Below, piece after piece: positions 1,314 through 22,681 of a stretch of DNA of 22,681 nt. Made by a program: the position numbers and the translations under genes. The notes beneath the pieces were generated by a model that saw only the letters and a list, made by a program, of their open reading frames with translations, ran no database searches and was not told where the DNA came from. Each line of letters begins with the position of its first letter. Within the stretch, counting starts at the first letter, position 1. Source of the DNA: Tubiluchus corallicola (lineage: Eukaryota; Priapulida; Priapulimorpha; Priapulimorphida; Tubiluchidae); assembly GCA_030141605.1 (NCBI GenBank), contig JAQGDQ010001877.1:1-22681 (forward strand), written 5' to 3'.

Positions 1314-1493
1314 CGGTATGTATTCGCATGTGATTCCGATGGTTTGTTGCACTAGAGAACCTGCGACCGCATCCGAGCTGATCGCACGCATACGGCCGTT
1401 CACCCGTGTGCGTCCTCATGTGAACTTTGCGAATGTTAGACGTGGTGAACGAACGATCGCATCCCTCAACTGTACATCTAAATGGTTTCTCTC
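1314..1493 (-). CDS. ZNF143: ZNF143-like coding exon 7 (fingers 4 and 5)
   Basis: Acceptor GCGTTTACAG|GAGAGA and donor CATACCG|GTAATG, phase 1 to phase 1. It encodes [36 protein letters not shown] and a fifth finger ending [11 protein letters not shown]. Both fingers have complete Cys2-His2 sets and match fingers 4 and 5 of Staf proteins. No continuation (finger 6) is visible between 1 and 1313, so the next exon is outside the window. The acceptor and first 20 or so coding bases are the source of the 41-bp array just upstream. Confidence 0.93.
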
Positions 1494-4400
1494 CTGTAAA
1501 CGCAAAATACAATACATCTAAATGGTTTCTCTCCTGTAAACACAAAAATACAATACATCTAAATGGCTTCTCTCCTATAAACACAAAAATACAATACAGT
1601 CAAATGGCTTCTCTCCTATAAACACAAAAATACAATACAGTCAAATGGCTTCTCTCCTATAAACACAAAAATACAATACAGTCAAATGGCTTCTCTCCAA
1701 TAAACACAAAAATACAATACAGTCAAATGGCTTCTCTCCAATAAACACAAAAATACAATACATCTAAATGGCTTCTCTCCAATAAACACAAAAATACAAT
1801 ACATCTAAATGGTTTCTCTCCTGTAAACACAAAAATACAATACATCTAAATGGTTTCTCTCCTGTAAACACAAAAATACAATACACTCTAAATGGCTTCT
1901 CTCCAATAAACACAAAAATACAATACACTCAAATGGCTTCTCTCCTGTAAACACAAAAATACAATACATCAAATGGCTTCTCTCCAATAAACACAAAAAT
2001 ACAATACATCTAAATGGCTTCTCTCCACTACACATACAAAAACTATACACCGAGATTCCTTCTCGTTGATAAAAAACATGAACAAACTGTTTCTAACTCA
2101 GTACCTCTTCTTTAAAAAGAAAAGTATCTGTTAATTTTTTTATCAGAAATTTCACTAAAATGCTGGTCTGATGTATGTCATTCATTAAAAAGAACAAGAA
2201 TGATACTCTAGATATTTTGATCACACAGGTCATTGCAAAGCACAGATAAAAATGAGTTTTGCTTTTCATGAAAAAAAACTATAAAACTTCGTTTTCATTT
2301 GATAATTTGTACAAATGCAGATTTTGCTACATTAACCATCATTGTTTACTGTATTGTGCTCAATTAAGTCACACTGAATAATAAAAAACCTAGCCGTCAC
2401 ATTACCTTCTTTCTGTCTGGCTAAATCTTGACTCACTGTCTTGCCAAGTAACTGAATCAAAACACTACAGACACAAAATGAGACAACAAAACACCAAACA
2501 AACATCTAAATGGCTTCTCTCCAATAAACACAAAAATACAATACATCTAAATGGTTTCTCTCCTGTAAACACAAAAATACAATACATCTAAATGGTTTCT
2601 CTCCTGTAAACACAAAAATACAATACATCTAAATGGTTTCTCTCCAATAAACACAAAAATACAATACATCTAAATGGCTTCTCTCCTGTAAACACAAAAA
2701 TACAATACATCTAAATGGTTTCTCTCCAATAAACACAAAAATACAATACATCTAAATGGCTTCTCTCCACTACACATACAAAAACTATACACCGAGATTC
2801 CTTCTCGTTGATAAAAAACATGAACAAACTGTTTCTAACTCAGTACCTCTTCTTTAAAAAGAAAAGTATCTGTTAATTTTTTTATCAGAAATTTCACTAA
2901 AACGCTGGTCTGATGTATGTCATTCATTAAACAGAACAAGAATGATACTTTAGATATTTTGATCACAGGTCATTGCAAAGCACAGATAAAAAATGAGTTT
3001 TGCTTTTCATGAAAAAAAACTATAAAACTTCGTTTTCATTTGATAATTTGTACAAATGCAGATTTTGCTACATTAACCATCATTGTTTACTGTATTGTGC
3101 TCAATTAAGTCACACTGAATAATAAAAAACCTAGCCGTCACATTACCTTCTTTCTGTCTGGCTAAATCTTGACTCACTGTCTTGCCAAGTAACTGAATCA
3201 AAACACTACAGACACAAAATGAGTTTACGAATTTTCAATGGAATCACCTGTATGAATTCAATTGACTCACCTGTATGAATTCAATTGACTCACCTGTATG
3301 AATTCAATTGACTCACCTTTATGAATTTAATTGACTCACCTGCACGAATTCAATTGACTCACCTGTATGAATTCAACTGACTCACCTGTATGAATTCAAT
3401 TGACTCACCTGTATGAATTCAATTGACTCACCTGTATGAATTCAATTGACTCACCTGTATGAATTCAATTGACTCACCTGTATGAATTCAATCGCCTCAC
3501 CTGTATGAATTCAATTGACTCACCTGTATGAATTCAATTGACTCACCTGTATGAATTCAATTGACTCACCTGTATGAATTCAATTGACTCACCTGTATGA
3601 ATTCAATTGACTCACCTTTATGAATTTAATTGACTCACCTGCACGAATTCAATTGACTCACCTGTATGAATTCAATTGACTCACCTGTATGAATTCAATC
3701 GCCTCACCTGTATGAATTCAATTGACTCACCTGTATGAATTCAATTGACTCACCTGTATGAATTCAACTGACTCACCTGTATGAATTCAACTGACTCACC
3801 TGTATGAATTCAATTGACTCGCCTGTATGAATTCAACTGACTCACCTGTATGAATTCAATTGACTCACCTGTATGAATTCAACTGACTCACCTGTATGAA
3901 TTCGAATGTGTTTTTGAAGATCTCCAGATGTCTTGAAGCCTTTATTGCACCGCTCGTCGGGACACTTGTAAGGTTTTTCTCCAGTGTGAACACGCAGGTG
4001 ACTTTTCAGCCCGTAGCCAGTAGAGAAAGTCTTACCGCAGCCTGGGATTTCACATTTAAATGGCCTGTACCCTGTATGTACTCTTTCATGAACCTGTAAC
4101 AAACCATACACGGGTGAGTCACATTTAAATGGCCTGTAGCCTGTGTGTACTCTTTCATGAACCTGTAACAAACCGTACACGGGTGAGTCACATTTAAATG
4201 GCCTGTACCCTGTACGTACTCTTTCATGAACCTGTAACAAACCGTACACAGGTGAGTCACATTTAAATGGCCTGTACCCTGTATGTGCTCTTTCATTTAA
4301 ATGGCCTGTACCCTGTATGTACTCTTTCACGAACCTGTAACGAAACATACACGGGTGGGTCACATTTAAATGGCCTGTACCCTGCATGTACTCTTTCACG

Positions 4401-7400
4401 AACCTGTAACGAAACATACACGGGTGGGTCACATTTAAATGGCCTGTACCCTGCATGTACTCTTTCATGAACCTGTAATACACAGGTGGGTCACATTTTC
4501 ATGCACCTCTAACAAACCATAGCCAGGACAATCAAACGTTCGTGCACCCGTATCATACCTTTGCCTGGTGAGTTATCTAGTAAATTGCAAGCAAAATAAC
4601 CAGTAAATGACAAAATTACATTTGGATAAACATTTAATGAATGGCATAGTAGTCAGCAAGAAAAGCTAAAAGCATCTATTGACTGTCACAGCTAAAAAAA
4701 GATCTAATAAACTGCAAAGCAAACCCGATGATTGGTCAAGAACATTTGATGAATGGTGGAAGAGTATCTGCTAAAAGAACACCAGACAAATGCCATAATA
4801 AGTCATAAATTAATGCACTACAATGCATAAAAACAAATACATAAAAGAACATGGAAAAATAACAGCTGGAAAATGGCAATAGAACATCAGGTACATAGCA
4901 GAACAGCTGGAAAATGGAAAAAAAGAACATTAGGTAGATAGCAGAACAGCTGGTAAGCGGTAAAATAACATCAGGTAGATAGCAGAACAGCTGGAAAATG
5001 GTAAAAAGAACATTAGGTAGATAGCAGAACATGGTAAAAGAACATCAGGTAGATAGCAGAACATCTGGTAAATGGAAAAAGAACATCAGGTAGATAGCAG
5101 AACAGCTGGAAAATGGTAAAAGAACATCAGGTAGATAGCAGAACAGCTGGTTAAATGATAAAAGAACATCAAGTAGATAGCAGAACAGCTGGAAAATAGA
5201 AAAAGAACATCAAGTAGATAGCAGAACAGCTGGAAAATAGAAAAAGAACATCAGGTAGATAGCAGAACAGCTGGTAAATGGTAAAAGAACATCAGGTAGA
5301 TAACAGAACAGCTGGTAAATGGTAAAAGAACATCAGGTAGATAGCAGAACAGCTGGAAAACAGTAAAAGAACATCAGGTAGATAGCAGAACAGCTGGAAA
5401 ACTATAAAAGAACATCAGGTAGATAGCACAACAGCTGGAAAATTATAAAAGAACATCAGGTAGATAGCAGAACAGCTGGTAAGCGGTAAAATAACATCAG
5501 GTAGATAGCAGAACAGCTGGAAAATGGTAAAAAGAACATTAGGTAGATAGCAGAACATGGTAAAAGAACATCAGGTAGATAGCAGAACATCTGGTAAATG
5601 GAAAAAGAACATCAGGTAGATAGCAGAACAGCTGGAAAATGGTAAAAGAACATCAGGTAGATAGCAGAACAGCTGGAAAATAGAAAAAGAACATCAGGTA
5701 GATAGCAGAACAGCTGGAAAATAGTAAAAGAACATCAGGTAGATAGCAGAACAGCTGGAAAACTATAAAAGAACATCAGGTAGATAGCACAACAGCTGGA
5801 AAATTATAAAAGAACATCAGGTAGATAGCAGAACAGCTGGAAAATGGTAAAAGAACATCAGGTAGATAGCAGAACAGCTGGAAAATGGAAAAAGAACATC
5901 AGGTAGATAGCAGAACAGCTGGAAAATGGTAAAAGAACATCAGGTAGATAGCACAACAGCTGGAAAATGGTAAAAGAACATCACGTAGATAGCAGAACAG
6001 CTGGGAAATGGTAATCAGCACCTGGTTAACTGTAAAATATAAACCATGCAAGTGTTGATTTGTCAAGTGCAAGAGCATTACCTTTACATGGTGTGCCGTA
6101 GTGTACAGTTTTCCACAGCCTTCATAATCACAAATATAAGCTTTTTCTCCTAGTGCCATGGCTCGAACGCTTCCGTGTGGTTGAGTTTGACCGTATGTCT
6201 TCGAGGGTGACGACTTGGAAGAGTGCTGGTAAGAAATGAAAACAATGCTTGGTAGACGACATATACCACATAACATCACCAGGTACATTCCATGTTAATT
6301 AGTTATTTATCTACCTTATGTATGTACTTTGTAATTTACAAGAAACAAGAAAGTAGTAAATTTGTAAGTTAGTAAATTTGTAAGTTTATTAAAAAAATAC
6401 ATTAATTAATAAATACATCAATAAATAGTGACTAGAGAGCAGTTTAGCCATTATAGTATCTTATCACTCACAGACTTTCCATCTGAAAACAAACCTAACG
6501 GGTAAGTACTAGATGATATTAGCTAACGGGTAAGTACTAGATGATATTAGCTAACAGGTAAGTACTAGATGAAATTAGCTAACAGGTAAGTACTAGATGA
6601 TATTAGCTAACAGGTAAGTACTAGATGATATTAGCTAACAGGTAAGTACTAGATGATATTAGCTAACGGGTAAGTACTAGATGATATTAGCTAACAGGTA
6701 AGTACTAGATGATATTAGCTAACAGGTAAGTACTAGATGATATTAGCTAACAGGTAAGTACTAGATGATATTAGCTAACAGGTAAGTACTAGATGATATT
6801 AGCTAACAGGTAAGTACTAGATGATATTAGCTAACAGGTAAGTACTAGATGATATTAGCACCTGGTCTAGTTTTATCTACAGTAGTTTAACATTGTCTAA
6901 ATAAAATATTTAGCTAAATGCTGAAAATGTGAAGTAGTAAGCATCATGTGAATGGTTGATATAAATACAGTTACTTTAACAACAAAATCACTAAACCTGG
7001 AAATCATTGATTTTAGGAAATTTCCTAAACTGGATCATTGATCAGTTCAGCTTATTGATTAAATATAGTCGACCCTCGTTAAACCGGACCCCGTTAGCCC
7101 GGATATCGGATAAGACGGACGTCATCCGTGGTAAAGGAAACTGACCGATTTCCGTCCGAGCCGGAGCGCTAAACACAACACGGCCTACCAACTGTACAAT
7201 CATTTCTTTATCCTCACAGGTTAACTATTTTAAAGTAATATACAGTATAGTATATAGTGCAATGTATATAGGCCTTATTAAGGTGATTATTCCTGTATAA
7301 TATGGACCATATATAGGCATATCGGATAAATCGGACAATCGGCTAAACCGGACCACCCACCCACCCCCAATTAGTCCGGTTTAACGAGGGTTGACTGTAA

Positions 7401-10400
7401 CTAGAGCATAGCGTTTACCTCACTTGTGACAATAGCATTAGCAAGTTGTTCATCAAGATCAGCATGTGAGATATATGCAGTTGATCCATCCTCTAATTGT
7501 ACAGCATGTAAACCATCTGTAAAATTGATCAAATTTTTCACAAACTGTTTAATCACACCATCTATCAAGTATCAAACACGCTGCAAATGACAAATTAGCA
7601 AACGTTTCTAGTTTTCGCTAAAACTGAAGTTATTAGACATCATGTAATCTCAGCAGGACAGACATCGCACAATCTCAGCAGAACAGACATCGCACAATCT
7701 CAGCAGAACAGACCAGACGAATAATTGTGAACTGCTGACACAGACTGCCTTAACCTGTCAAACTACTGCAAGACAAACTGAAACGTTATAGCAATGATAT
7801 TTCTATTAGTGAGACATGTTACGGTTTTAGGAATGAAATCTCAAGCAACTACAAAGATACAAATTGAACAGTACCACCAGTGCTACTGTCTGAGTCGTTT
7901 TTGTTAAAATGCACGTTGCAAATCATGCTGCAGTACAAAACGCAAAGCAAAGTTGTAACATCAAAACCTCGAGAATCCTGAAAAATGCTAGTGATAAATT
8001 TATTACATATAAGTTCTATTGGGGATCCTTTCAGTCCCAAATTATTTTTTTAATAAGGAAAATTTTTTTGGCTTGGTACTTTTGTTCAGTATGTTCATCT
8101 TGTTTACACATAATAATTATTTTTTTCTACCTGTGCCCCCGTGCTAAATATAGCCTGTATCCCACGGGATACATTGGGATTCAATGGAAGTATAAAATGT
8201 GCTTCATTTTGCAACTGCTGATAATTTTTTAAAGTATTTAAGACATTCAGTATGCACGCTATGCTGATCTGTATAAAGTCGTCTCTAAAGTACTGTACCT
8301 TGCGCAGTTTTATATGCTATGTAGATTTTCTAGTTTGCCCTTTTATCACCATTTTTAGTCGATTGTTATTGGCTTAAATCAAAATAACTATTAACAGATC
8401 AAATAAATGTCAGTTTTAAAATTTTATTCATTTTAAAGGCAGAAAATATTCTCGTATCCCACGGGATACAACGGGTATGAAAGGGTTAAACTAGAAAAAT
8501 TGCCATTGTTCTGCATAAGAAATAACATACCAATACTTGTAGCACTTCCGTGTATGTAAGCCGTTGCTCCGCTGTCTAATAATATGGATTCACCAGAGGC
8601 AAGTGAGGATCCTGGGCTCTGATTCAATATGTCCTTGAATCTTTTGAATGCACTAAAATCTTTTGTCACTGCTTGTAGATACGCAGTGCTGCCATCTTCT
8701 AGCAAAACTTCCAGTTTTTCTGATGAGCCTGTTTGTTAAAGAGATACACCTGTATGGACATGCAGCTAATACAAAATTATAGGTAAAACTGGTGAGGGTG
8801 ATATGAATGGTTCAATGTTCAGTGGTTGAGTGGCTACAGTGTACGCTTAGTACAGGGGTGTGCAAATTATCTGACTAGCCAGGTCCACATTAAACTTTTC
8901 CCGCAATTCCTGTGGGCCACAGGCAGTTTGATCAAGGAGCCAAGTACAGAAAGGCCTAATAACGATTTTTTTTGCATCCGACCTGCGTACATCATTACTA
9001 CTACACTCAAGAAACTATTTTAGAAGTTATTAAAATTTATATTACAAACCATATATTTCAACTTTCAGGACAGATAGTGGTAATTTCAGTACAATGCATA
9101 TTAGTAATGTGTATCACACAGTCTGTGTAGTACAGTGACATTAAGCTACAACCGTCTTGTAAGGGTTAATGGCATCCGATCTAGTAGAAAAAACTACCCG
9201 CACTATCTTTGGGATCGTGGCACGGACTTCAGCTGGATACACTCAATTAATCGCCCGGGCTGCATTTCCATTAGGTTGACATATCACTTCGCGGGCCGCA
9301 CTTTCATTAGGTTGACAAATCTCTTCGCGGGCCGCATTTTCATTGGGTTGACATATCACTTCGTGGGCCGCATTTTCATTAGGTTGACATATCACTTCGC
9401 GGGCAGCATTTTCATTAGGTTGACATATCACTTCGCGGGCCGCATTTTCATTAGGTTGACATATCACTTCGCGGGCCGCATTTTCATTAGGTTGACATAT
9501 CACTTCGCGGGCCGCATTTTCATTAGGTTGACATATCACTTCGCGGGCCGCATTTTCATTAGGTTGACATATCACCTCGCGGGCCGCATTTTCATTAGGT
9601 TGACATATCACCTCGCGGGCCGCATTTTCATTAGGTTGACATATCACTTCGCGGGCCGCATTTTCATTAGGTTGACATATCACTTCGCGGGCCGCATTTT
9701 CATTAGGTTGACATATCACTTCGCGGGCCGCATTTTCATTAGGTTGACATATCACTTCGCGGGCCGCATTTTCATTAGGTTGACATATCACTTCGCGGGC
9801 CGCATTTTCATTAGGTTGACATATCACTTCGCGGGCCGCATTTTCATTAGGTTGACAAATCTCTTCGCGGCCCGCACTTTCATTAGGTTGACATATCACT
9901 TCGCGGGCCGCACAAATTCTCTCGGCGGGCCGCAAGTGGCCCGCGGGCCGCAATTTGCACACCCCTGGCTTAGTAGATGGATGGGTGACTTCTGTTTCCC
10001 AATATCTATAGCATCCGGGCTAACGGGGTCCGGTTTAACGAGGGTCGACTGTATAGATCTTTAAACATTTACCAACCTTCATCAATAGATGTCATCGGGC
10101 CAAGATAAGCCGCCATGGAGCCGTCGGCAAGCGCAACGGCGTGAAAGTCCGAGGGAAGCTCTTGAGCAATTTCAATCGCCACTGCCTTCGCGTTCAAATC
10201 ATCTGCAGCATCCAGTGTTGTATCCATGACAACGGGTTTCTCGTCACTATCCACTACATTACTTGGTATTTTTACCTAGGAAGAAAAATGCTGTGAGTGA
10301 AATTGTAACACAGTCTAATTTGAACCACCAATAAAAACGTACTAAATAATACTTTATTTACACCAAAATAAAACAAAACGACATTTTTCAAGCTATTAAC

Positions 10401-11638
10401 CCTTTCAGTCCCAAATTATTTTTTTAATAAGAAAAATTTTTTTGGCTTGGTACTTTTGTTCAGTATGTCCATCTTGTTTACACATAATTATTTTTTTCAG
10501 CCTGTGCCCGCGTGCTAAATATAGCTTATATCCCACGGGATACATTGGGATTTAATGGAAGCATAAAATGTGCTTCATTTTGCATTTTGCTGATAATTTT
10601 TTAAAGTATTTAAGACATTTAGTATGCACGCTATGCTGATCTGTACAAAGTCGTCTCTAAAGTACTGTACCTTGCGCAGTTTTATATGTTATGTAGATTT
10701 TGTAGTTTGCCATTTTATCACCATTTTTAGTCTATTGTTATTGGCTTAAATCAAAATAACTATTAACAGATCAAATAACTGTCAGTTTTAAAATTTTATT
10801 AATTTTAAAGGCAGAAAATATTATCGTATCCCACAGGATACAACGGGTATGAAAGGGTTGAATACAGCAATTTTCATCTGTCATGTATGTTTCAATCGTA
10901 GCAGTTGAACGATGGTAATTTTTGCTAAAACTTCAGTGCTTTGCATATCATCATCATCACCATCATATCATCATCATACGCCCGTCACGTCTATTGTAGA
11001 CATTGGGCCGGCAGAATTCTAAAATAAAAGAAATCTGCCTTCAGACAGGTAAACGCAGCAGTAATCCAGCAAGAAAAACTAGACACTGCTATGCCAGTGG
11101 CTTGTCAGCACCACTTCCGTTTGCACATCAGTCATTTCACGAACATCATGATGCAAATTCATGTCAGTTTTGTGCCAAACATTCCATCCGATGTAGCAAA
11201 AAGTAACAAATGCAAAATTTCACGTGCAACAAATTTCTACCTCAAAACCAATCAGAAATCACTCAGATTTTAGTTTAGGAGTATCACGTGGCAAAAAGAC
11301 CACTGGTCACTATACGTTGAGTGGCAAAAAGACCACTGGTCACTATACGTTGAGTGGCAAAAAGACCACTGGTCACTATACCTTGAGTGGCAAAAAGACC
11401 ACTGGTCACTATACCTTGAAAACTTTTGAAAGCATTTAAAAAACAAATTTGCATAAGACAAATTAACAAAAGAAATAAACAAAATTGAAGTGAATTTTAT
11501 CTAAATTTGCCATAGTCATACCTCTTGATACACGTGATCAGATAAAGCGCTGACGGTGGCGCCACTGTGCGCTATTGATGGCAGTGGTATGCTGTCATCA
11601 ATGTCCACTTCACCATCTCCTGCTATTTCCACCTCCAT
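1314..11638 (-). CDS. ZNF143: ZNF143/ZNF76-like C2H2 zinc-finger transcription factor (7 coding exons, 3' end off window)
   Basis: Joined exons, in order: 11638-11522, 10275-10077, 8728-8531, 7516-7419, 6225-6082, 4093-3892, 1493-1314. They total 1138 coding bases with every junction in phase. Four acidic motifs of the type VxLxDGSxAY lie in the N-terminal half, then fingers containing [34 protein letters not shown] and [18 protein letters not shown]. This order and these finger-core sequences are diagnostic of the Staf family (ZNF143 and ZNF76). Those proteins bind SBS elements in snRNA and many mRNA promoters and activate Pol II and Pol III transcription through DG-x-AY repeats. Fingers 1-5 of the usual seven are visible; fingers 6-7 and the C-terminal region must lie left of position 1. 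Invertebrates usually have one member, so ZNF143 versus ZNF76 cannot be separated. Family assignment is near certain; exact exon edges are inferred from splice consensus and phase. Confidence 0.95.
1475..2034 (-). repeat. 41-bp minisatellite built from the exon 7 acceptor (block 1)
   Basis: About 13 copies beyond the exon, unit about 41 bases. On the minus strand each copy reads intron tail TTTTTGTGTTTACAG, then GAGAGAAACCATTTAGATGT, the first coding bases of exon 7. Copies come in three acceptor states: CAG (intact), TAG (usable) and TTG (AG destroyed). In order from the exon: CAG, then TAG x3, TTG x3, CAG x2, TTG, CAG, TTG, with a diverged final copy. Since 41 is not a multiple of 3, use of neighbouring acceptors would shift frame. 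Confidence 0.9.
2020..2482. repeat. Segmental duplication, copy 1
   Basis: The sequence from the last 41-bp unit through ACACAAAATGAG recurs at 2762-3223 at an offset of about 742 bases. There are only scattered substitutions and small indels (for example CACACAGG versus CACAGG), so the duplication is recent. Confidence 0.95.
2505..2772 (-). repeat. 41-bp minisatellite from exon 7 acceptor (block 2)
   Basis: Seven further copies of the unit in 1475-2034, with acceptor states in order TTG, CAG, CAG, TTG, CAG, TTG, diverged. It is part of a segmental duplication whose non-repetitive flank is also present twice. Confidence 0.9.
2762..3223. repeat. Segmental duplication, copy 2
   Basis: Near-identical to 2020-2482. 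It ends directly before the 23-bp donor array. The duplicated unit carries a 41-bp acceptor block with it, so decoy acceptors were multiplied a second time. Confidence 0.95.
3233..3897 (-). repeat. 23-bp minisatellite built from the exon 6 donor site
   Basis: About 29 copies of a 23-base unit which on the minus strand reads GAATTCATACAGGTGAGTCA plus ATT. The true exon 6 end is CGAATTCATACAG|GTGAGTCA, so the array repeats the last coding bases and the 5' splice site. Nearly all copies keep CAG|GTGAGT. Marker variants (CTTTAT with GAATTT, then TGCACG) recur 299 bases (13 units) apart, showing block duplication. Confidence 0.97.
3892..4093 (-). CDS. ZNF143: ZNF143-like coding exon 6 (end of finger 1, fingers 2 and 3)
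   Basis: Acceptor GTTTGTTACAG|GTTCAT and donor CATACAG|GTGAGT, phase 0 to phase 1, 67 codons. It begins [14 protein letters not shown] (His pair of finger 1), then finger 2 with [19 protein letters not shown] and finger 3 with [14 protein letters not shown]. All Cys2-His2 ligands and the TGEKPY linker are intact. Both edges of this exon are copied many times in adjacent intron DNA: its acceptor with the first 43 coding bases in a 69-bp array, and its donor in a 23-bp array. I chose the acceptor at 4093 because it is the last before the intact finger, but acceptors at 4162 and 4231 are in frame and could also be used. Confidence 0.93.
4050..4530 (-). repeat. 69-bp minisatellite built from the exon 6 acceptor
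   Basis: About six and a half clear 69-base copies plus a degenerate one near 4500-4530. Each minus-strand unit has GGTTTGTTACAG or CGTTACAG followed by GTTCATGAAAGAGTACATAC and the next bases of exon 6, then GACTCACCCGTGTA of intron. Candidate acceptors (first exon base) lie at 4093, 4162, 4231, 4334, 4403 and 4472. One copy (4260-4294) has lost its acceptor through a 35-base deletion. The unit length is 3x23, so the two acceptors nearest the exon stay in frame. Confidence 0.95.
4531..4845. other. Intron sequence, no feature
   Basis: AT-rich sequence between the acceptor array and the 40-bp array. I see no coding match or element. Confidence 0.5.
4846..6012. repeat. 40-bp intronic minisatellite
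   Basis: About 28 copies of a 39-41 base unit, on the plus strand GAACATCAGGTAGATAGCAG plus AACAGCTGGAAAATGGTAAA. It holds an E-box palindrome CAGCTG and a CAGGTAGAT core on the plus strand. Variant blocks (CTGGTAAGCGG followed by a short unit) recur 526 bases apart (4950 and 5476), so higher-order duplication has occurred. It fills most of intron 5 but does not include either splice site of that intron. Confidence 0.95.
6082..6225 (-). CDS. ZNF143: ZNF143-like coding exon 5 (linker and first half of zinc finger 1)
   Basis: Acceptor CATTTCTTACCAG|CACTCT and donor GTAAAG|GTAATG, phase 0 to phase 0, 48 codons. It starts [16 protein letters not shown], a Ser/Thr-rich linker, then [20 protein letters not shown] and HVK. 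The two zinc-binding Cys are here; the two His of the same finger are in the next exon, so an intron splits finger 1. The open frame runs on into a 40-bp tandem array in the intron, which is not coding. Confidence 0.93.
6496..6859. repeat. 28-bp minisatellite with perfect antisense 5' splice sites
   Basis: About 13 nearly identical copies of a 28-base unit, plus strand AACAGGTAAGTACTAGATGA then TATTAGCT. Most copies have CAGGTAAGTA, the full consensus 5' splice site, on the strand opposite to the host gene; a few have CGGGTAAGTA. In the sense intron RNA the unit reads TACTTACCTG, the same as the 5' end of U1 snRNA. Confidence 0.97.
6860..7065. other. Intron sequence, no feature
   Basis: AT-rich; nothing recognised apart from a TTTAGGAAATTTCCTAAA palindrome at about 7012-7029. 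Confidence 0.5.
7066..7397. mobile_element. pogo/Tigger-like MITE
   Basis: Terminal inverted repeats of about 24 bases: left TAGTCGACCCTCGTTAAACC, right ending in the complement of CAGTCAACCCTCGTTAAACC. It is flanked by TA at 7064-7065 and 7398-7399. CAGTYRACCCTCGnTAA termini with TA target duplication are typical of the pogo group of Tc1/mariner elements. At 332 bases there is no transposase. It lies 21 bases past the donor of exon 4. Confidence 0.85.
7419..7516 (-). CDS. ZNF143: ZNF143-like coding exon 4 (fourth DG-x-AY repeat)
   Basis: Acceptor CAATTTTACAG|ATGG and donor GAG|GTAAAC, phase 1 to phase 0. The 98 bases encode [20 protein letters not shown] followed by a short helix-like acidic segment ending [19 protein letters not shown] is almost identical to repeats in vertebrate ZNF143. 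The exon is too short to stand out as an open frame and was found by reading the minus strand for the repeat motif. A pogo-like MITE ends 21 bases past its donor. Confidence 0.92.
7646..7713. repeat. 25-bp tandem repeat, 2.7 copies
   Basis: Unit AATCTCAGCAGAACAGACAT plus CGCAC, with one mismatch in the first copy. It is intronic. No splice motif is seen in it. Confidence 0.95.
8026..8485. mobile_element. piggyBac-like MITE, copy A
   Basis: Closely related to 10400-10857. The right end is GGGTATGAAAGGG followed by TTAA (8486-8489); the left end, CCTTTCAGTCCC, has lost its TTAA. A subterminal near-palindrome GTATCCCACGGGATAC occurs near the right end, and a similar TATCCCACGGGATA lies internally (about 8158-8172). 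CCCTTT termini with TTAA targets are typical of piggyBac elements. No transposase. Confidence 0.8.
8531..8728 (-). CDS. ZNF143: ZNF143-like coding exon 3 (second and third DG-x-AY repeats)
   Basis: Acceptor AACAAACAG|GCTCATCAG and donor ATTG|GTATGT, phase 1 to phase 1. It encodes about 65 residues holding two activation repeats, [15 protein letters not shown] and [15 protein letters not shown], separated by a lysine/phenylalanine-containing linker. The LEDGSTAY core matches the repeated transactivation motifs of vertebrate ZNF143. A piggyBac-like MITE starts 41 bases past the donor. Confidence 0.92.
8853..9967. mobile_element. hAT-type (Charlie-like) element with an internal 36-bp array
   Basis: Terminal inverted repeats CAGGGGTGTGCAAATT and AATTTGCACACCCCTG, with a perfect 8-base target duplication GCTTAGTA at 8845-8852 and 9968-9975. 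These features define a hAT element; the GGGCCGC-rich ends resemble Charlie-type families. No transposase is encoded. About 18 copies of a 36-base unit fill 9270-9915, whereas the sibling element at 18418-18695 has one copy. The long open frames here (309 and 239 codons) simply read this 12-codon repeat. Confidence 0.92.
9270..9915. repeat. 36-bp CpG-rich minisatellite inside the hAT element
   Basis: Unit ATTAGGTTGACATATCACTT then CGCGGGCCGCATTTTC, about 18 copies, very homogeneous in the centre with variant copies at both ends. Each unit has three intact CpG sites, unlike the AT-rich surroundings. The unit length being a multiple of 3 keeps open frames on both strands. Confidence 0.95.
10013..10051. 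mobile_element. pogo-like element, solitary right end
   Basis: GGTCCGGTTTAACGAGGGTC then GACTG, followed by TA, matches the right terminus of the MITE at 7066-7397, and ATCCGGGCTAACGGGG matches the inside of its left end. No opposite end is seen nearby, so it is a fragment. It lies about 25 bases past the donor of exon 2. Confidence 0.75.
10077..10275 (-). CDS. ZNF143: ZNF143-like coding exon 2 (first DG-x-AY repeat)
   Basis: Acceptor TTTCTTCCTAG|GTAAAA; the frame reads [16 protein letters not shown] and continues to a first activation repeat, [16 protein letters not shown], then TSIDEG. Two donors are possible: GAAG|GTTGGT at 10077, or a better-looking GTAAAT four bases further on. Only the first restores frame with the next exon (leftover G joined to GC gives Gly), so I chose it. 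Phase 0 in, phase 1 out. A pogo-like transposon end begins about 24 bases past the donor. Confidence 0.88.
10400..10857. mobile_element. piggyBac-like MITE, copy B
   Basis: TTAA (10396-10399), then CCCTTTCAGTCCC at the left and GGGTATGAAAGGG at the right, followed by TTGA (a mutated TTAA). It is closely related along its length to 8026-8485, with short indels. No coding capacity. It lies in intron 1 of the ZNF143-like gene. Confidence 0.87.
10946..11010 (+). repeat. CAT microsatellite with possible LINE tail
   Basis: An interrupted (ATC)n tract at 10946-10977 is followed by CGCCCGTCACGTCTATTGTA and GACATTGGGCC. That resembles a short conserved 3' segment seen next to such tracts in some RTE-like retroposons. 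The match is from general recall and weak. Confidence 0.35.
11288..11418. repeat. 33-bp tandem repeat, 4 copies
   Basis: Unit GTGGCAAAAAGACCACTGGT plus CACTATACSTTGA. The core GACCACTGGTC is an 11-base palindrome. Being a multiple of 3 the array stays open in several frames (for example [11 protein letters not shown] repeated), but nothing suggests it is translated. It is in intron 1. Confidence 0.95.
11522..11638 (-). CDS. ZNF143: ZNF143-like coding exon 1 (start codon exon)
   Basis: The 39 codons begin [20 protein letters not shown] and end DHVYQE before the donor GAG|GTATGA, phase 0. The ATG at 11638 has G at -3 and G at +4, a good initiation context, and an in-frame TAA lies 21 bases upstream, so translation cannot start earlier in this exon. 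A pyrimidine-rich stretch followed by CACCAG just upstream (about 11644-11665) looks like a 3' splice site, which would leave only TGGTC as 5' UTR here and imply an upstream non-coding exon. The peptide is acidic, as expected for the activation region, but this N-terminus is not itself conserved. Confidence 0.8.
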
Positions 11639-18417: not shown

Positions 18418-18695
18418 CAGGGGTGTGCAAATTATCTGACTAGCGGGGCCACATTAAACATTCCCGCAATTCCTGTGGCAAATTTACATTAAAAACCAAA
18501 TATTTCATCATGTCCGACAGCGACATTAAGTGACAACGGTCTTGTAAGGGTTAATGCCATCCGATCTAGAGGAAAAAACTACCCACACTATTTTTGCGAT
18601 ATTGGTGCAGACTTCAGCTGGATTGCATGGGCTGCACTTTCATTACGTTGACAAACCTCTTCGCGGGCCACACAAGATCTTTCGGCACACCCCTG
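18418..18695. mobile_element. hAT-type MITE, short sibling with one 36-bp unit
   Basis: Ends CAGGGGTGTGCAAATTATCT and GGCACACCCCTG; target duplication AACTAAAC (18410-18417) / AACTAAAA (18696-18703). It shares its left half and the CGGTCTTGTAAGGGTTAATG block with the element at 8853-9967 but has only one 36-base unit. The paralogous site in the second duplication copy (about 19238) lacks the insert, giving a direct empty-site control. Confidence 0.92.
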
Positions 18696-20748: not shown

Positions 20749-20829
<81 letters not shown>

Positions 20830-21507
20830 GTCGTCATCATCATCATCATCATTATTAAACTTATTAGTAAAGAAATTGCAAATAATAATGTTCTACAAAT
20901 GGTTGCCTTTCTGTAGCTTGACTGCCAGGGAAAGCTAACTTATAGTTCTAGGTGACACAATACATTCAAAACACATGAAAAACCCATCTTATGCTGCTGA
21001 TTCACTATTGGTTACAAATAACAAACATTAAATTGGTTCTAATGCACCCGTAAAGGCTTCAAATGCAAAACGTTCTTCAGAAGTCCTGATACAAGCATCA
21101 TACAACAAAATATATTTTTTCAACACAAAATGCCTAAGTTAATGCTTGCTTATTTATCATAAATATTGTGTTGTCCATTCTGACAACTTTTTCTAGAGAC
21201 AAATCGAAATTCTAACATTAGTTAGGATTTTTCGTATAAACCATCATTAAAACAAAAAAAAACTAAAATTTCTGATAAAATTTATACAGTTTTGAGACAC
21301 ATAGTAAATGAATAAACAGAAATACTTACCTAAGATACCAAAAACAGCCTCTGGAAGGATATCTAATGGTGAAAGAAGGTATAACAATGCAGCCAGGAAA
21401 CACAGTATTAATCTCAGTCGGAACATCGCCATTAAACCTCCAACAGAGAAAAATTCATTCACGGCATGACGTAGTAACGTTGGCAAATCATTTAGGTAGT
21501 CCCACAC
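20213..21507 (-). CDS. RNF170: RNF170-like ER membrane E3 ubiquitin ligase, C-terminal exons (5' part off window)
   Basis: Two exons (21507-21330 and 20304-20213) join in phase 1 to give the C-terminal 89 residues of an RNF170-type protein. RNF170 is a RING E3 of the endoplasmic reticulum membrane that, with erlins, targets activated IP3 receptors for degradation. Visible here is the DUF1232-like C-terminal module: [20 protein letters not shown], a hydrophobic helix, the hallmark [19 protein letters not shown], a second hydrophobic helix and a basic tail. The RING domain and first membrane segment must lie right of the window. The gene is upstream of, and in the same orientation as, the ZNF143-like gene. 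Confidence 0.93.
20482..20750 (+). mobile_element. tRNA-derived SINE
   Basis: An A box TAGTCTAGTGG (20489-20499) and a B box GAGTTCGAACC (20531-20541) form a Pol III promoter of tRNA type. A conserved-looking central part GGGTCATACCAAAGACTTTA follows, and the tail runs into AATAAAG(ATT)n. The architecture is that of an animal SINE with tRNA head and ATT tail; the centre resembles a widespread metazoan SINE core, but I cannot name the family. It sits in the last RNF170-like intron, antisense to the gene. Confidence 0.8.
20731..20859. repeat. ATT/ATC microsatellite
   Basis: The SINE tail (ATT)n changes to (ATC)n of about 30 units, interrupted once by CGTCGTC, and ends in ATTATT. It probably grew from the SINE tail. 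Confidence 0.95.
20860..21320. other. Intron sequence, no feature
   Basis: AT-rich intron of the RNF170-like gene between the microsatellite and the exon donor; nothing recognised. Confidence 0.5.
21330..21507 (-). CDS. RNF170: RNF170-like penultimate coding exon
   Basis: Acceptor TTTCTGCTCAG|GTGTGG and donor CTTAG|GTAAGT, phase 0 to phase 1. It encodes [35 protein letters not shown], a hydrophobic helix [10 protein letters not shown] and [14 protein letters not shown]. The [14 protein letters not shown] and SPLDxxPEAxFGILG blocks are the conserved core of the RNF170 C-terminus. A 45-bp minisatellite begins about 30 bases upstream of the acceptor. Confidence 0.94.
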
Positions 21508-21539
21508 CTGAGCAGAAAAAATAATGCGTAATCGTTACA

Positions 21540-22681
21540 ATAATTGTACATAACACACAACACTTATACTGGTAATCATTACAATAATTGTACATAAGCA
21601 CACAATAATTGTACATAACACACAACACTTATACTGGTAATCATTACAATAATTGTACATAAACGCACAACACTTATACTGGTAATCATTACAATAATTG
21701 TACATAAACGCACAACACTTATACTGGTAATCATTACAATAATTGTACATAAACACACAACACTTATACTGGTAATCATTACAATAATTGTACATAAACA
21801 CACAACACTTATACTGGTAATCGATACAATAATTGTACATAAACACACAACACTTATACTGGTAATCGTTACAATAATTGTACATAAACGCACAACACTT
21901 ATACTGGTAATCATTACAATAATTGTACATAAACACACAACACTTATACTGGTAATCGTTACAATAATTGTACATAAACACACAACACTTATACTGGTAA
22001 TCGTTACAATAATTGTACATAAACGCACAACACTTATACTGGTAATCGTTACAATAATTGTACATAAACGCACAACACTTATACTGGTAATCGTTACAAT
22101 AATTGTACATAAACGCACAACACTTATACTGGTAATCGTTACAATAATTGTACATAAACACACAACACTTATACTGGTAATCATTACAATAATTGTACAT
22201 AAACACACAACACTTATACTGGTAATCGTTACAATAATTGTACATAACACACAACACTTATACTGGTAATCATTACAATAATTGTACATAAACACACAAC
22301 ACTCATACTGGTAATCATTACAATAATTGTACATAAACACACAACACTTATACTGGTAATCATTACAATAATTGTACATAAACGCACAACACTTATACTG
22401 GTAATCATTACAATAATTGTACATAAACACACAACACTTATACTGGTAATCATTACAATAATTGTACATAAACACACAACACTTATACTGGTAATCATTA
22501 CAATAATTGTACATAAACACACAACACTTATACTGGTAATCAATACAATAATTGTACATAAACACACAACACTTATACTGGTAATCGTTACAATAATTGT
22601 ACATAAACACACAACACTTATACTGGTAATCATTACAATAATTGTACATAAACACACAACACTTATACTGGTAATCGATAC
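21540..22681. repeat. 45-bp minisatellite in the RNF170-like intron, continuing off window
   Basis: About 25 copies of a 45-base unit, plus strand AATCATTACAATAATTGTAC then ATAAACACACAACACTTATA and CTGGT. Variants include ATT/GTT/GAT/AAT in one position and CACAC/CGCAC in another. A 35-base partial unit occurs near 21594. The multiple-of-3 length creates minus-strand open frames of 240 and 358 codons reading YNYCNDYQYKCC repeats; these are not proteins. The array starts about 30 bases upstream of the exon acceptor. Confidence 0.97.

Follow-up and report, generated by a model that had tools for sequence, protein, structure and literature searches.

In a stretch of 22,681 bases (the window, which is the whole of contig C975 of a 343.5-Mb genome that its genes mark as an animal's), three minisatellite arrays lie on three splice junctions of one gene, a ZNF143-like gene on the minus strand. 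The arrays have different unit sizes (23, 41, and 69 bases), and every type of unit contains coding bases next to the junction. These arrays are probably mirages, that is, minisatellites born by tandem duplication across a splice junction, then amplified and tolerated by splicing. The observed basis is the anatomy of the arrays, the coding content of their units, the scores of many decoy splice sites (equal to or better than those of the real sites), the recurrence of such arrays at coding exon ends in other genes, and array turnover.

Seven coding exons of the ZNF143-like gene are read, with Pfam zinc-finger matches and relatives among ZNF143/ZNF76 proteins. The protein has repeated motifs ahead of the fingers and then tandem C2H2 fingers. 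Exon 5 (6082-6225, minus strand) encodes the first part of finger 1. Exon 6 (3892-4093, minus strand, 202 bp), again with zinc-finger Pfam matches, starts in phase 0 and ends in phase 1, and its translation ends with HIRIHTG. Exon 7 (1314-1493, minus strand, 180 bp) has its start copied in the 41-base arrays.

The arrays were located by Tandem Repeats Finder (TRF) and their units were then aligned to the exon edges on the minus strand. The donor array (3234-3903, minus strand) has 29.1 copies of GTGAGTCARTTGAATTCATACAG. On the sense strand, this 23-base unit reads GTGAGTCARTTG (11-12 intron bases), and then the final 11-12 coding bases of exon 6. Since AG closes the exon and GT opens the intron, each donor unit forms a GT...AG module. 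The 41-base unit is made of the last 20 bases of intron 6 and the first 21 of exon 7; it occurs in an exon-proximal block (1473-2026, minus strand, 13.5 copies) and in a second block (2498-2791, minus strand, 7.2 copies). The 69-base unit combines about 28 bases of the end of intron 5 with about 41 bases of the start of exon 6. Its array (4050-4478, minus strand; TRF rows 4050-4296 and 4294-4478) includes one copy enlarged to 103 bases. Arrays are present, then, at a 5′ boundary (donor, 3234-3903) as well as at 3′ boundaries (acceptor, 1473-2026, 2498-2791, and 4050-4478). Intron 6 has the donor array at its start and acceptor arrays at its end, and exon 6 has an array on either side. In these respects (three unit sizes, junctions and coding bases within the units, the bracketing of intron 6 and exon 6), the TRF coordinates and the unit alignments bear out the original prediction, which was made from the letters of the window.

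That prediction needs correction for the 41-base array, which is broken into its two blocks by a segmental duplication within intron 6. Copy A of the duplicated segment (2009-2482, minus strand) lies between the two blocks and copy B (2751-3223, minus strand) beyond them, with 469 of 475 columns identical. Point variants distinguish the units within the arrays. With random placement over the gene, at least three of eight seed units would fall on a splice boundary with P 0.006 (Poisson and simulation), a value that is weak alone because it was computed post hoc in a window selected as unusual. Within the 69-base unit, the intronic bases, TGACTCACCCGTGTATG, are similar to the reverse complement of the donor region of exon 6 and of the 23-base unit, CATACAGGTGAGTCA; the score is reached in 2 of 20000 shuffles, or about 0.01 after 90 unit comparisons. 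This inverted likeness may stem from template switching from one end of exon 6 to the other, or from chance. It also leaves exon 6 flanked by inverted repeats (3234-3903 and 4050-4478).

Many copies carry candidate splice sites, scored here with a generic matrix for splice sites. The real donor of exon 6 scores 13.3; of the 27 further GT sites listed in this register, 26 fall at 12.4-13.3 and the remaining one at 8.5. A further donor copy carries GC for GT (GCGAGT). For the exon-6 acceptors, the real site scores 8.0 and five decoys 7.1-9.1; for exon 7, the real acceptor scores 9.1 and ten decoys 9.2-11.0. Among the 18 decoy units in the 41-base arrays, 8 no longer have the acceptor AG, a second correction to the original prediction. 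The open frame is kept by none of the five donor decoys tested, by one of ten exon-7 acceptor decoys (1574, +81), and by two of five exon-6 acceptor decoys (4162, +69, and 4231, +138). Most of the alternative uses tested would therefore break the protein. With 28 scored donors against 11 scored acceptors, nearly all alike, and with most of the wrong choices tested breaking the frame, intron 6 offers a natural experiment on spliceosome choice of the exon-proximal site among equals.

We infer that these arrays arose through short tandem duplications, that they are nearly neutral, and that splicing is correct. A stretch of 20-70 bases spanning a splice junction would be duplicated in tandem and then amplified by slippage or unequal exchange, with every extra copy kept within the intron. 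The exon-adjacent copy would stay functional and the transcript could still be spliced, so that the array would be nearly neutral. Duplicated exon bases would be kept out of the mature message while the exon-proximal site is used, and selection would eliminate any expansion within the exon itself. The use of a wrong donor would add whole GT...AG modules, which a second round of splicing could remove.

Arrays of this kind are also present in other genes. A search through the genome with two donor words, CAGGTGAGT and CAGGTAAGT, gave 10 families of arrays for the first among the matches listed, and for these CAGGTGAGT families only, the sense-upstream flanks were read at 11 places and in the window. 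Six of the 10 listed families, the window included, begin exactly where an open frame ends, and the exonic part of the units in these six is 7-36 bases long. In C173, the frame belongs to an axonemal dynein heavy chain (PF08393, E 2.9e-8; DNAH9 chain, E 1.4e-10). In C338, it is MROH-like (PF23210, E 7.7e-5), with 21.6 bits, below the curated cut-off of 27. In C467 and C1517, it is weakly sulfotransferase-like, with no Pfam family and a PDB match at E 0.25 that stands behind two better unrelated matches. The arrays of C1357 and C555 also begin at the end of open frames, but of frames without a convincing family. In C939 and C1149, the arrays lie about 30-50 bases past a Kunitz-like exon (PF00014, E 0.002, below the cut-off; only C939 was scanned). 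At the array flanks in C161, C597, and C679, there is no convincing coding exon. Between C467 and C1517, which could be alleles or paralogues, 170 of the 174 bases before the donor are identical and the first array units differ. These unit differences, together with the segmental duplication in intron 6, constitute array turnover.

Myosin exons served as an unbiased set for comparison. In 20 myosin loci analyzed by TRF (26 of the 93 exons matched), no exon edge carries an array with a period of at least 15 and at least 3 copies, in a set too small for a rate under a few percent. Two short repeats are seen near myosin exons: a 14-base repeat in 2.1 copies before an acceptor (L088, 260-288) and a 25-base repeat in 2.0 copies about 30 bases from an exon match (L074, 1525-1572). 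Inverted copies within one contig are present in C917, C555, and C357 (for example, the myosin matches in C917 at 20757-21788 minus and 92822-93853 plus); perhaps these are palindromic assembly errors. In a second zinc-finger gene (L044, on C2089), a 68-base two-copy repeat (7380-7512) was rejected as a further case: it begins at the stop codon and not at a splice site. The start of that repeat resembles a finger linker.

The genome-wide search required a donor word three times with gaps of 6-36 bases and took the same word reversed as control. CAGGTGAGT triplicated gives 140 matches vs. 8 for the reversed word (singly, 2702 vs. 1218), and CAGGTAAGT gives 348 vs. 29 (singly, 5468 vs. 2250). 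Donor families were counted among the first ~100 of the 140 and of the 348 matches (contigs up to C1517 and C676, respectively), and the site numbers were scaled by contig number and not by length. Lumped as one family each are C467 with C1517, C939 with C1149, the two places in C555, the two in C357, and C507 with C557 and C676. Among the matches listed, there are 10 families for CAGGTGAGT and 8 for CAGGTAAGT. The control arrays, listed completely, comprise five arrays for one word and three places of one family for the other. In these scaled counts, the donor words have 18 families for ~3135 sites (0.57%) and the controls 6 for 3431 (0.17%), a ratio of 3.3 (one-sided Fisher, 0.006). The unit of C507/C557/C676 is that of C939/C1149 and is entered twice in the 18; there are 17 families without it and 16 also without the discovery locus, for which the ratio is 2.9 (p 0.016). 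As a motif-based stand-in for enrichment at exon edges, the test is positive, about 3-fold per site. Some repeats have units longer than the search covered: in C9 (4813-5958), CAGGTAAGT recurs every 80-174 bases and, in C2 (1253027-1253639), every 302 bases.

Array density was sampled by TRF in 148.5 kb, in 15 stretches, one of them chosen around a zinc-finger match and three beside an earlier stretch; the sample gives array density only. Occupancy is 0.16% (from 7 arrays), against 0.17% for the control words. With the control rate so close to the array occupancy of the genome, the birth of minisatellites is a frequent background event, and this high background is enough to place some arrays on junctions. 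The original prediction held that arrays on three junctions are hard to explain by random minisatellite birth, an exclusion that does not follow from the counts. The excess over control amounts to 55% of the CAGGTGAGT sites, so that 6 of 10 families at exon ends is what arrays striking CAGGTGAGT sites blindly would give. At twice the sampled occupancy, the 10 CAGGTGAGT families have P 0.28, and a doubled array density in genes would therefore be enough.

Several points weigh against the arrays being mirages of this simple kind. Normal splicing of the ZNF143-like gene is assumed. The inverted likeness between the 69- and 23-base units is not explained by plain slippage. Judging by the myosin loci, junctions do not often carry arrays. 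Per site, the array rate at donor words is about 3-fold higher than at control words, which exceeds the expectation for uniform random birth. The sampled occupancy would give 4.0 CAGGTGAGT arrays in the whole genome; the families observed number at least 10 (P 0.008).

The 3-fold excess of arrays at donor words suggests a higher rate of array birth, or of array retention, at junctions. Splice junctions may, tentatively, be preferred birthplaces of minisatellites in this genome, with GT...AG modules removable by splicing and junction arrays thereby shielded from selection. If so, mirages would be a general animal phenomenon (the host being probably no lancelet) and a constant source of decoy splice sites. 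A true enrichment of junction arrays would allow the lengthening of introns, cryptic splice sites, and potential gains of introns to be measured in bulk and not gene by gene; if the enrichment vanishes under a gene-matched control, mirages would be minisatellites that chanced on a boundary.

A specific process at junctions that raises tandem duplication there (R-loops, polymerase paused at 5′ splice sites, or re-integrated splicing by-products) appears unlikely. Arrays at donor words that are 2.9-3.3 times more frequent per site than in the control (Fisher 0.006-0.016), or about 5 times if the whole excess sits at real donors, argue for such a process, as do the three affected junctions of one gene (P 0.006). 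However, those counts come from the matches listed and are scaled by contig number, and the CAGGTGAGT excess is gone at doubled array density (P 0.28). The same gene in the window has five arrays that cross none of its own junctions (4861-6014, 6495-6859, 7646-7713, 9256-9912, and 11288-11419), three of the ten listed families are without a convincing coding exon, and none of the 20 myosin loci has an edge array. The control word also occurs outside genes, so gene regions rich in arrays could account for the 3-fold excess, and the scaled counts do not separate the two causes.

It is improbable that the arrays are intermediates of an intron gain, or of a boundary shift, under way by AG|GT tandem duplication (the Rogers model). 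Every donor unit runs from GT to AG, the exon-6 acceptor decoys at +69 and +138 and the exon-7 decoy at +81 keep the open frame, and intron gain is proposed for globins in the excerpts of PMC3087553. However, the open frame is kept in just 0 of 5 donor, 1 of 10 exon-7, and 2 of 5 exon-6 acceptor decoys tested. The arrays, which the original prediction took for a frozen intron gain, all lie inside existing introns, with no new intron position demonstrated. Assembly artefacts are likewise improbable: at 22,681 bases the contig is short, and its end falls within a 45-base array, and C917, C555, and C357 contain inverted copies of themselves, but the units differ by point variants, the same anatomy is found in independent contigs and genes, and C467 and C1517 bear related but different arrays.

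There are other repeats in the window. In intron 4, a 28-base array (6495-6859, 13.0 copies) has a perfect donor, CAGGTAAGT, in its unit, in the orientation opposite to that of the gene; this is either an antisense exon or a donor-like word favored without a junction. In intron 5, a 41-base array (4861-6014, 28.5 copies) lies near the exon-5 donor, which is not included. A 36-base array is found within an element (8853-9967) with inverted ends GGGGTGTGCAAATT...AATTTGCACACCCC, by eye a relic of a DNA transposon, and a second relic of this kind is seen, also by eye, at about 18418-18695. An exon with similarity to DUF1232 (about 21332-21510; PF06803, E 2.7e-6), which we take to be RNF170-like, stands directly before a 45-base array (21602-22676, 23.9 copies) that reaches the contig end. 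An Rfam search of the window gives no match.

Mirages are known from amphioxus as tandem duplications across exon-intron boundaries, in Adh3 and in the globins BflGb6 and BflGb9 (PMC3087553), and also in PGBD5 and troponin C (PMC3902484). The claim of the original prediction that there is no named system like this is wrong, because mirages are published. Published work is compared here through excerpts of the papers; in these, the units of mirages are 10-160 bp long (PMC3087553) and splicing is reported as undisturbed (PMC3087553; PMC3902484). Another trait of mirages is length variation between haplotypes or somatic instability. The arrays of the window are similarly minisatellite-like duplications of boundaries, both 5′ and 3′, with splice signals in many repeats, and their units of 23, 41, and 69 bp fall inside the published range. 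Like mirages, they recur in several genes, with homology for ZNF143, dynein, and MROH (the last below the Pfam cut-off). Unlike the amphioxus cases as excerpted, one intron here has arrays at both ends and one exon has arrays on either side, and the copy number is about 29, vs. 6 and 3 in amphioxus BflGb6. A search of the literature by titles and abstract starts, with preprints outside its scope, yielded no genome-wide survey of boundary arrays.

In a further difference, the host here is probably not a lancelet, although this is unproven. A search for COX1 gave no match, and a search of genome contigs led to 35 loci in prokaryote-labelled records, neither being of use for the taxonomy. The closest ZNF143 relatives, among the best 120 of 7126 proteins, are from Priapulus (57% identity), Strigamia (56%), and Pinctada (54%). 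For residues 80-260 of the protein, identity is at most 42% among the best 120 of 623 proteins. Branchiostoma is not named in either set of 120, the candidates being limited by length and some entries nameless.

The excerpted intron gain in potato RdRp (PMC4974935), which follows the Rogers model, also has tandem copies with AG|GT, but a new intron was made there, whereas the copies here are within an existing intron. In the tandem repeats of UBC, dual-specific AGGT sites work both ways and introns are embedded in the repeats, according to the excerpts of PMC10809524. The units here are likewise bounded by AG|GT, as potential 5′ or 3′ sites, and recursive splicing is possible. The UBC repeats are coding, however, and their sites are reported as used, whereas the extra copies here are intronic and their sites are candidates. 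The phenomenon is one already named, to which this genome adds further probable cases.

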